Source: Spirochaetaceae bacterium (GTDB taxonomy: Bacteria; Spirochaetota; Spirochaetia; B11-G9). Taken from it: DNA of 64,000 nucleotides. The notes under the pieces are model-generated. The model did no database searches and was not told the origin of the DNA. It saw only the letters and a list, made by a program, of their open reading frames with translations. The stretch is taken from positions 1 through 64,000 of the forward strand of contig WGCU01000043.1 of the NCBI GenBank assembly GCA_015493635.1. The letters run 5' to 3'. Below, piece after piece: positions 1,863-5,436 of this stretch. The translations under genes and the position numbers were made by a program. How positions within the stretch are numbered: the stretch's first letter is position 1; every line of letters starts with the position of its first letter.

Positions 1863-2885
1863 GTGATATCAGTATTTAAACCTTCAATTAAACGTAAAGA
1901 TATGGACAGAGTGCTTACCTGCCTCATTTCAGATTTTATAGGTTTCGGTGAACGTGCCAGAGAGTTTATACATCTTATTTCTCAGTACCTTGAAGCTGAA
2001 GCAGGAGTGGGATTTCGTGATTATTCCGTTGCTTTCGGGAGTGCTCTTGATCTTCTTGAGCTTGAACCCGGTAGTTCTGTGATTATTTCACCCCTGTCTC
2101 CAGCCTTTTACTATTATGAAATTAAGAGGCGCGGTTTTGATGTTGTCTACGCTGATGTAAATCCGGTAAACGGATGTATGGATCTGTCTGCTATTGCCGA
2201 GCTGCAAAAAAATACTCCCGCAGCATTGTTTCTCCATTTTCCTCTTGGGTTTATTCCCGACCTTGCTTTACTGGAAAATATCACTATTCCTGTGGTTATG
2301 GATATTTCTTCTGCGTTCAGCGGGACATATAAAGGGCAGTCTTTCTGCCAATTGGCAGATATACTTATTGTAAGTCTCGAAGAAGAGGGTATTATTACCG
2401 CAGGCGGTGGAACTTTGGTGGTAAGCGGGAAAAGCAGGTATGTTTCAAAGATTCAAAAATTCAGGAAAATAGTTCCCGTAACTTCACTGTTAACCGATAT
2501 CAATGCGTCACTTGGAACAGTTCAGTTCCATCAGATGGATTCGTTTCTTGAAAAAAGAAAGGCTATTGATGAAATATTCCGTGTTTCTCTTATGAGAGGA
2601 AGACACACAAGGCTGCTTCAGGAAGACGATAGCAATAATGTTCCCTTTTCGTTCCCTGTTTTATTGGAAGGGAATATTCAGGATGTACGTCAGTATGCAC
2701 GGAAAAAGAATATTCGGACAAAAATAGCCTTTGAAGATGCGGTGTTCCTGCAGCATCAAATTGAACGGTATTCTTGTCCGAACGCACTATCCATTGTAAA
2801 GAGATCTATTCTCTTTCCATTGTATCCCTCCTTAAGCAAACGGAATATAGAAATAATTTCCAAAGTACTCACAACACTGCCATGA
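1863..2885 (+). CDS. DegT/DnrJ/EryC1-like protein lacking the PLP lysine
   Basis: A 340-aa protein with the layout of sugar aminotransferases of the DegT/DnrJ/EryC1/StrS family: the FGSALDLLEL helix (about 59-68), the PLP-stacking strand region and the conserved aspartate D147 in VVMDISSAFSGTYKG. At the place where the family has the Schiff-base lysine (usually an SFHATK-type motif before a GEGG turn), this protein reads SLEEEG (171-176) before ITAGGG (178-183), so there is no lysine. It is probably not an aminotransferase and may be a binding or structural relative. The start is GTG with only a weak SD. It lies between cheW and nadK with short gaps, and the context gives no clear pathway. 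Confidence 0.7.
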   Translation: MISVFKPSIKRKDMDRVLTCLISDFIGFGERAREFIHLISQYLEAEAGVGFRDYSVAFGSALDLLELEPGSSVIISPLSPAFYYYEIKRRGFDVVYADVNPVNGCMDLSAIAELQKNTPAALFLHFPLGFIPDLALLENITIPVVMDISSAFSGTYKGQSFCQLADILIVSLEEEGIITAGGGTLVVSGKSRYVSKIQKFRKIVPVTSLLTDINASLGTVQFHQMDSFLEKRKAIDEIFRVSLMRGRHTRLLQEDDSNNVPFSFPVLLEGNIQDVRQYARKKNIRTKIAFEDAVFLQHQIERYSCPNALSIVKRSILFPLYPSLSKRNIEIISKVLTTLP

Positions 2886-2903: not shown

Positions 2904-3758
2904 GTGAATAAGTCCATAAAAAAAGTATTGATCATTGCCAATCTTCATAAACGGGAGGTTAAAGGCCTCATTGAAGAGATTAAAGATTACCTTGAGCAAA
3001 AGAAAATAGAGGTTGTTGTTTTTGGTTTTATCGGTAAACCGGAAATCCCGGATGTCAGGGGAATAGATTTTGTTTTCTCCTTGGGAGGTGATGGTACCGT
3101 TCTGTATGCTTCAAGGGTAGTGGAAAGTTCAGGGATTCCTATTCTTGCGCTTAATCTTGGGAAATTCGGGTTTATTACAGAAATATCAAAGGCGGAATGG
3201 AAAACAGTATTCGAAAAGTATCAGAAAAATGAGGTTGGCTTGTCACGCAGAATTATGCTCAAAGTAGTTGTGGAAAGAGAAGGCCGGAAAATCATCTCAT
3301 TTAAAGGACTGAATGATGCGGTTATCAGCTGCGAAGGTATTTCAACAATTGTAAAGCTCAGTCTGATGATAAATGACACACCCCTTGGTGAGTACCGGGC
3401 GGACGGTGTTATCGTCGCAACACCAACCGGTTCAACAGCATACAGTGTTTCTGCAGGAGGTCCCATCCTTGATCCGGAACTGGAAGCATTAATTGTTAAT
3501 CCAATCTGTCCTTTCACCCTTTCAAACCGTCCTCTTGTTGTTTCCGGTGATGAAGTTATCACTATTCTTGTTGAAGCGGATCAGAGAGTTGGAATCATCC
3601 TTTCTATTGACGGTCAGGATTCTTTTCCTCTGCTTCCTCATGACAGAGTTATTATAGAAAAATCCCATAGTAAAACACTTCTTGTTAAATCGGATGTCCG
3701 GAATTTTTATGAAATTCTACGATCTAAATTAAATTGGTCGGGGGGCCCCGATGCTTGA
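2904..3758 (+). CDS. nadK: NAD kinase
   Basis: A 284-aa enzyme that phosphorylates NAD to NADP with ATP or polyphosphate. The diagnostic GGDGT motif is at 61-65 (catalytic Asp63), followed by LNLGKFGFITEI and, in the C-terminal half, the nucleotide-binding segment VATPTGSTAYSVSAGGP. The length is normal for the bacterial family. The start is GTG behind a purine-rich site (AGAGGGGG). The last 8 bp overlap recN, so the two are translationally coupled. The nadK-recN pairing is common in bacteria. Confidence 0.95.
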   Translation: MNKSIKKVLIIANLHKREVKGLIEEIKDYLEQKKIEVVVFGFIGKPEIPDVRGIDFVFSLGGDGTVLYASRVVESSGIPILALNLGKFGFITEISKAEWKTVFEKYQKNEVGLSRRIMLKVVVEREGRKIISFKGLNDAVISCEGISTIVKLSLMINDTPLGEYRADGVIVATPTGSTAYSVSAGGPILDPELEALIVNPICPFTLSNRPLVVSGDEVITILVEADQRVGIILSIDGQDSFPLLPHDRVIIEKSHSKTLLVKSDVRNFYEILRSKLNWSGGPDA

Positions 3759-5436
3759 AGAACTTACTATTCAGAATTATGCATTGATTGAGTCTCTTAC
3801 CTTGAAGTTTACTTCCGGGCTTACCATTTTTTCCGGAGAAACAGGAGCAGGAAAATCTATAATAATAGGAGCTCTCGGACTGCTTCTCGGTGCCAAGGGA
3901 GATCCTGGTTTAATACGTACCGGAAGCAGTGAAACAAAGGTATCCGGAGTTATACATGTCATGGAGAATAACGATGCGCAGGCATGGCTTGAAGAACGGG
4001 ATATAGCTGCTGATGATGGTTATGTTGTTATCAGACGGACTGTCCGTTCTGCCGGGAGAGGGACCCTTTCTATCCAATCCATGCCTGTGACGCGAAGCGA
4101 GCTTGCTGAGTTTACCTCGTTTCTCTTTGATATGCATGGGCAGCATGCTCATCAGTCACTGCTGAATATAGATAATCACCGGAAACTCCTCGATAACTAT
4201 TCGGGTATTTCCCGGGATGTCGCACAATTGAGAGAAACCTTTTCCGAGCTGTCCGGATTAAAGAAAAAGCAGGAAGCATTAAAGAAAACTGAACGAGATA
4301 TACTTATTGAGCGTGATATGCTGCAGCATGCAATACAGGAAATAAATGATGCGGAGCTTTCACCGGGAGAAGAAGAAATTCTTATAGATGAAAGGTCGGT
4401 GCTGGTACAGCATGAAAGTTTGATGGTATTGTTTGAAACCTTTAAGGAATCTCTGGCAGCAGAAAGCAGCGGAGCATTGACGAAACTTGGAACAGCTGGA
4501 GAATCCCTCGATAAAATAGCAGGTATTATCAGTTCAGCTGATACGTATAGGGAACGGTGGAATAATGCATTCTTTGAAATTGAAGACATTTTTGAAACAT
4601 TGAAAGCTATGGAGGAGGAAATTGACTATTCTCCTGAACGGCTTGAAGAATGTGAAGACAGGTTGCAGCTTATCCGCAGACTTGAAAAAAAGTATGGTGA
4701 CTCTATAGAGGAGGTACTCAGGTATAAAGCTGAAGCTGAAAAAAAGCTTACAGGGTTCGAGAATCGTGATGCCGATATTTCCTCTCTGGAAAAACAGATT
4801 GCTGTCAAGGAAAAATTTGTTCTTGAAAAAGCGCATTTTATCTCGTCAACACGTAAATCCCGCGGGACAATACTTGAGAAAGAGATTCTCGGCGGGCTGC
4901 ATAAACTTGGAATGGGAAAAGCCTCTTTTAAAATAAGTATTAAAAATCGTGAAACTGGCAATGGAAAGTTTACATGCGGACCGACAGGAATGGATCGTGT
5001 AGAATTCCTTATATCCACCAACGAAGGGGAACCGCTGAAGCCGCTTAAGGCAATAGCCTCAGGAGGAGAGCTTTCACGGATAATGTTAAGTATAAAATCT
5101 GTTCTTGCTGATTCTGATAATATCTCCACCCTTGTTTTTGATGAGATTGATACTGGAATCGGCGGTGAAGTAGCGCTCTCTGTAGGGGAGCATCTTGTAT
5201 CGCTGTCGAGGCACAAACAAATTCTTTGTATAACACACCTTGCTTCCATTGCTGTTTGTGCCGATAGTCAATATAAAGTGGACAAATTAACAGAAGAGGG
5301 GAGAACCTTTACAGAAGTTCATATTGTTAGTGGTGAAGAGAGAGTGAAAGAAATTGCCCGGATGCTTGCGGGTGATACAGAAGGAACGGCATCACTTGAC
5401 CATGCCCGGGAATTATTGCATAAGTATCAGCAATAG
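3751..5436 (+). CDS. recN: DNA repair protein RecN
   Basis: A 561-aa SMC-like ATPase acting in double-strand break repair. The Walker A motif GETGAGKS is at 29-36 of the N-terminal head, two long coiled-coil arms occupy about 155-360, and the C-terminal head carries the ABC signature region (ASGGELSRIMLSIK) and the Walker B FDEIDTGIGG. Length and layout are typical. The ATG lies within the end of nadK behind GGGGGCCCCG, so expression is coupled. A 207-aa open frame opposite this gene is a coding shadow. Confidence 0.96.
   Translation: MLEELTIQNYALIESLTLKFTSGLTIFSGETGAGKSIIIGALGLLLGAKGDPGLIRTGSSETKVSGVIHVMENNDAQAWLEERDIAADDGYVVIRRTVRSAGRGTLSIQSMPVTRSELAEFTSFLFDMHGQHAHQSLLNIDNHRKLLDNYSGISRDVAQLRETFSELSGLKKKQEALKKTERDILIERDMLQHAIQEINDAELSPGEEEILIDERSVLVQHESLMVLFETFKESLAAESSGALTKLGTAGESLDKIAGIISSADTYRERWNNAFFEIEDIFETLKAMEEEIDYSPERLEECEDRLQLIRRLEKKYGDSIEEVLRYKAEAEKKLTGFENRDADISSLEKQIAVKEKFVLEKAHFISSTRKSRGTILEKEILGGLHKLGMGKASFKISIKNRETGNGKFTCGPTGMDRVEFLISTNEGEPLKPLKAIASGGELSRIMLSIKSVLADSDNISTLVFDEIDTGIGGEVALSVGEHLVSLSRHKQILCITHLASIAVCADSQYKVDKLTEEGRTFTEVHIVSGEERVKEIARMLAGDTEGTASLDHARELLHKYQQ

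Follow-up and report, generated by a model that had tools for sequence, protein, structure and literature searches.

The gene that stands between cheW and nadK in the genome of a Spirochaetaceae bacterium encodes a protein with the predicted fold of a DegT-type sugar aminotransferase that lacks the lysine with which these enzymes form a Schiff base with PLP, and that lysine is missing from all of the orthologues examined from the same class. The reading that we favour, with moderate confidence, is that the protein is a pseudo-aminotransferase that works free of PLP and is now probably a ligand-binding or regulatory protein, likely a dimer. The window, which is the whole stretch of DNA that was analysed, is 64,000 nt long and corresponds to positions 1–64,000 of contig WGCU01000043.1 in assembly GCA_015493635.1.

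The pseudo-aminotransferase gene (positions 1863–2885) has a GTG start and encodes 340 aa. It is separated by 14 bases from the upstream neighbour cheW (1366–1848) and by 18 bases from the downstream neighbour nadK (2904–3758), which encodes NAD kinase and overlaps recN (3751–5436), the conserved third member of the run, by 8 bases; all four genes are on the forward strand. A 5S rRNA-like sequence was noted, by eye only, at positions 50–165, just 5′ of the usp-cheW-nadK run. The protein matches the Pfam profile PF01041 (DegT_DnrJ_EryC1) nearly end to end with a score of 99.2 bits (cut-off 19.8), and none of the NCBIfam equivalogs (PseC, ArnB, WecE and others) scored above its cut-off with the window protein, the best being PseC with 82.3 bits against the 423.5 required. 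An AlphaFold model made with 42 orthologues as input has a mean pLDDT of 93.7 and a pTM of 0.92, and when Foldseek was run with this model the top solved matches were ArnB and other DegT-type sugar aminotransferases (TMq approximately 0.92). Hence, the protein is predicted to have the fold-type-I aminotransferase fold, and the claim of an earlier note on this DNA that the DegT fold is kept was borne out by the profile score, the model and the match to ArnB.

At the place of the family motif S-F-x-x-x-K the window protein has SLEEEG (residues 171–176, codons at 2373–2390, forward strand), which puts Gly176 in the column of the PLP lysine and leaves the protein without the catalytic lysine of the motif. 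The Asp that binds N1 of PLP in this family is retained as Asp147 (codon at 2301–2303, forward strand) and is found in 125/126 orthologues from the class. Both features had been pointed out in the earlier note, which set SLEEEG against an SFHATK-type motif, and the alignment agrees. Residues at the lysine column were counted across the class in a non-redundant set of 126 orthologues, where column 176 is occupied by D (34), G (32), S (18), C (17), N (12) or H (10), with A, L and T found once each and K in 0/126. As a control, 20 canonical DegT paralogues were taken from the same genome set, two of them from the window's own genome, and all 20 have Lys in this column. Chance or sequencing error is ruled out because not one of the class orthologues has Lys there. 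The earlier proposal that no Schiff base can form at the usual place is supported by this family-wide absence of lysine in the class and by the erosion of the phosphate-binding motifs described below. Its companion, that no His has replaced the lysine, is true of the window protein, which has Gly, but does not extend to the 10 orthologues with His in column 176.

Lysines elsewhere in the protein were examined by conservation rather than by distances in the model. An alternative Schiff-base lysine was rejected, as no Lys is invariant among the class orthologues, the nearest being K281, where Lys is found in 85 %. The N-terminal Lys columns interchange with Arg, which is unable to replace a Schiff-base lysine, and hence they provide no substitute. 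In some class orthologues (L021, L026, L179, L180 and L188) a Lys lies one residue early, and it is not conserved. A Lys one residue before the lysine column, for example in DFSSKQ, was also seen in three relatives from other classes (L132, L134 and L138, groups f44/f57), where it is possibly a shifted or relic lysine.

The same loss of lysine, which the earlier note had proposed to look for in other spirochaetes, was found across the class and in most of the relatives from other classes. Matches were found in 50 of 59 related genomes, approximately 48 of these matches being clear orthologues, and in broader samples the profile of the orthologue family was matched in 156/199 genomes of the class and in 97/120 genomes of the phylum, with lower scores outside the class. 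The best 80 matches in a named genome collection all had spirochaete titles, among them Sphaerochaeta, Bullifex porci and Marispirochaeta. One orthologue (L177, 3917–5188) comes from a single-contig genome of 1,139,633 bases. It was observed to have a long insertion ahead of the conserved C-terminal FPLYP segment.

Forty loci of other classes from the phylum sample were read one by one. In the Brachyspira-like genomes, with a Serpulina variable-surface-protein gene nearby, the motif is canonical apart from an Arg in place of the lysine, further relatives carry M, D, S, E or Q at the lysine column, and four deep relatives (L142, L154, L157 and L162) keep Lys. When the tree was rooted on the canonical paralogues the whole family fell into one clade (SH-aLRT 100) with the Lys-bearing members near the base, though some of these were placed with weak support. 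A minimum of two lysine changes is needed on the rooted tree, and a single clade of members without lysine was not rejected (AU p 0.41). The four Lys-bearing relatives belong to the same clade as the window protein and differ from it in keeping S-F-x-x-x-K, which gives them the look of ordinary aminotransferases at that motif, and one of them, L154, shares the locus, adjoining nadK and recN. Because such relatives exist, one of them at the nadK-recN locus, we conclude from the sequences that an ordinary aminotransferase probably stood at this locus and lost its lysine early, once or twice.

The phosphate cup of the DegT enzymes (SGT, GxNxR) is not retained in the class. Canonical residues have been lost from the SGT Thr (column 55, variable), from GYNYR (columns 205–209, unconserved) and from Ser171, and this, together with the missing Schiff-base Lys, separates the window protein from ArnB and the other DegT/DnrJ/EryC1/StrS sugar aminotransferases (PF01041), with which it shares the predicted fold, the profile match, Asp147 and the glycine-rich segment after the lysine position. 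This GGG segment remains, and Gly183 is invariant (126/126 class orthologues). The alignment suggests that three other residues stand in place of the eroded cup, all encoded on the forward strand: Arg52 in the old phosphate cup (codon at 2016–2018; R in 107/126 orthologues, where the canonical paralogues for the most part have N or S), Tyr83 (2109–2111; Y in 110/126, and T, S, C or P in the paralogues) and Glu173, two positions beyond the former phosphate Ser (2379–2381; E in 108 and D in 8 of 126, and Y, H or F in the paralogues). From the alignment and general knowledge of the DegT family, we take these residues to lie in the pocket. Columns 52 and 173 covary among the class orthologues (R-E in 104, K-D in 4, most other losses joint) and show the strongest coupling among 1035 column pairs (phi 0.78, against 0.57 for the pair ranked second), suggesting an Arg52–Glu173 ion pair. 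Though the raw signal is strong, mapping of the two columns on the tree gave 5 and 8 independent changes, which are too few, and the coupling was not significant with relatedness counted; covariation was accordingly rejected as proof of a contact.

The course of events that we envisage starts from an ordinary DegT/ArnB-type sugar aminotransferase beside nadK-recN, in which loss of the lysine and of the phosphate cup would have left no covalent PLP and probably no bound PLP at all. The old cofactor pocket would have been rebuilt around Asp147, Arg52, Glu173 and Tyr83, with a likely ion pair between Arg52 and Glu173. The protein would, by analogy with the family, probably form a homodimer, and it would bind a ligand, perhaps still a sugar-nucleotide-like one, or act in regulation, and be expressed together with NAD kinase. 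The repurposing suggested in the earlier note finds support in the family-wide lysine loss, in the eroded PLP phosphate motifs, in the lack of any other invariant lysine and in the strong selection described below; the protein may, as that note also put it, serve in binding or as a structural component. Non-covalent binding of PLP or PMP by the pseudo-aminotransferase is possible, as D147 and the GGG segment are still present.

The strongest competitor of a PLP-free binding or regulatory protein is a new chemistry performed in the rebuilt pocket. The protein would then still be an enzyme, performing either a ColD/E1-type PMP reaction with another base or a PLP-free reaction that uses D147, E173, R52 and Y83. 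A precedent exists in the sugar 3-dehydratases ColD, E1 and SpnQ, which have a DegT-type fold with the catalytic lysine replaced by His and which establish that replacement of the lysine, as has also occurred in the window protein, can alter the chemistry of this fold (PMC8987622). The charged, near-invariant columns of the inferred pocket, the presence of D147 in 125/126 orthologues and the His at the lysine column in 10/126 are further points in favour. However, those dehydratases have a catalytic His and use PMP, whereas the window protein has Gly in place of any such His and column 176 is variable in its family (D, G, S, C, N, H), and PMP binding is itself doubtful because the phosphate cup is eroded. 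We consider that the protein is rather unlikely to be an enzyme.

The gene order bears on two further readings. Among class loci that are non-redundant and have enough flanking sequence, nadK is directly downstream in 100/104, and cheW is directly upstream in 68/100. The position between cheW and nadK, reported in the earlier note together with a proposal to search for the same context elsewhere, hence holds in the window and is near-constant in relatives on the nadK-recN side, but cheW is not a constant neighbour. In the Sphaerochaetaceae the gene precedes nadK and there is no adjoining cheW. In the Borrelia-like (f20) and f7 genomes, from which the pseudo-aminotransferase is absent, cheW directly precedes nadK and recN follows; recN was found in 28/29 genomes without the pseudo-aminotransferase. 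A DegT gene with the lysine motif was observed 3′ of recN in f7 genomes; one such gene, with S-[FY]-x-x-x-K, lies on the forward strand shortly 3′ of recN in genome G013 (L239, 5033–6340), and there is a partial copy in L240. As the f20 and f7 genomes keep cheW-nadK without it, neither CheW nor NadK needs the pseudo-aminotransferase. A role in regulating NAD kinase, or as its partner, would account for the constant order of the genes, including the 10 loci of other classes in which nadK is downstream on the same strand, but the f20 and f7 genomes and the many other-class genomes that keep the protein away from nadK argue against this role, which we regard as improbable. What keeps the gene in front of nadK may be co-expression and not contact. 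That the protein is fused to CheW or NadK at some loci was also rejected, as the long frames there look like read-through and, by eye, include no extra domain. A part in chemotaxis alongside CheW, as the upstream cheW of 68 class loci might indicate, is very unlikely and was rejected on the Sphaerochaetaceae loci without an adjoining cheW and on the Borrelia-like genomes that keep that cheW without the protein.

Outside the class, a gene for a GlgC/GlgD-like protein, with ADP-glucose pyrophosphorylases as its closest profiles, immediately precedes the DegT-like gene at 7 loci of three deep lineages (L154, 4708–5856; L139, 2808–3938; L169, 741–1883); the class genomes tested gave weak partial matches to it or none. 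By eye, its N-terminal half is without the usual glycine-rich nucleotidyltransferase signature, and it may likewise be non-catalytic. This neighbour suggests a link to sugar metabolism. A 6-pyruvoyl-tetrahydropterin-synthase-like gene was seen directly 3′ of the DegT-like gene at L135 (5061–5429) and at five similar loci, in another class.

There are known cases of PLP-fold subunits without the lysine; the LCB1 subunit of serine palmitoyltransferase is such a pseudoenzyme and needs an active sister subunit. Like LCB1, the spirochaete pseudo-aminotransferase is a lysine-less fold-type-I protein kept by selection, and it could in the same manner pair, as the inactive subunit, with an active DegT aminotransferase in a heteromer, since further DegT genes, these with Lys, are present in the genome from which the window comes. 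However, several spirochaete genomes lack an active DegT sister. As a second DegT-family gene (PF01041, E≤1e-10) is missing from four genomes that are 95–99 % complete (G034, G040, G116 and G129), obligate partnership is excluded as a general rule, and we give the heteromer very little credence. In genomes such as G013, G021, G250 and G264 other DegT-family genes are present and the pseudo-aminotransferase is absent.

For the closest pairs listed, 20 in number and in part duplicate records, dN/dS ranges from 0.02 to 0.31, and because these values are well below 1 the pseudo-aminotransferase is maintained by strong purifying selection. Though no other gene of the run changes as fast, gene decay or an error in the sequence, to which we assign a negligible probability, is already refuted by the intact frames across the class and by dN/dS.

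In the literature searched, which was mostly open-access, we found no description of a spirochaete pseudo-aminotransferase family, and nothing of relevance on TP0440, on pseudoenzymes of the DegT type or on the gene order. Lysine-replaced members of the fold are already known, and what is new is a phylum-wide pseudo-aminotransferase with traceable ancestors. A family match alone would lead to annotation as an aminotransferase, very probably in error as far as the class is concerned. Retention across most of the phylum, including in a genome of 1.14 Mb, implies that the protein does something that is selected for. Tentatively, it could be a phylum-wide ligand sensor or regulator derived from a dead sugar aminotransferase, whose rebuilt pocket would recognise a new small molecule and which, in spirochaetes and probably in Treponema among them, would influence either the supply of NADP or the metabolism of envelope sugars. 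The Lys-bearing deep relatives and the intermediates, such as the Brachyspira-like members with Arg, form a stepwise series from an enzyme to a presumed non-enzyme, and because such a series exists, what replaces catalysis becomes directly testable.
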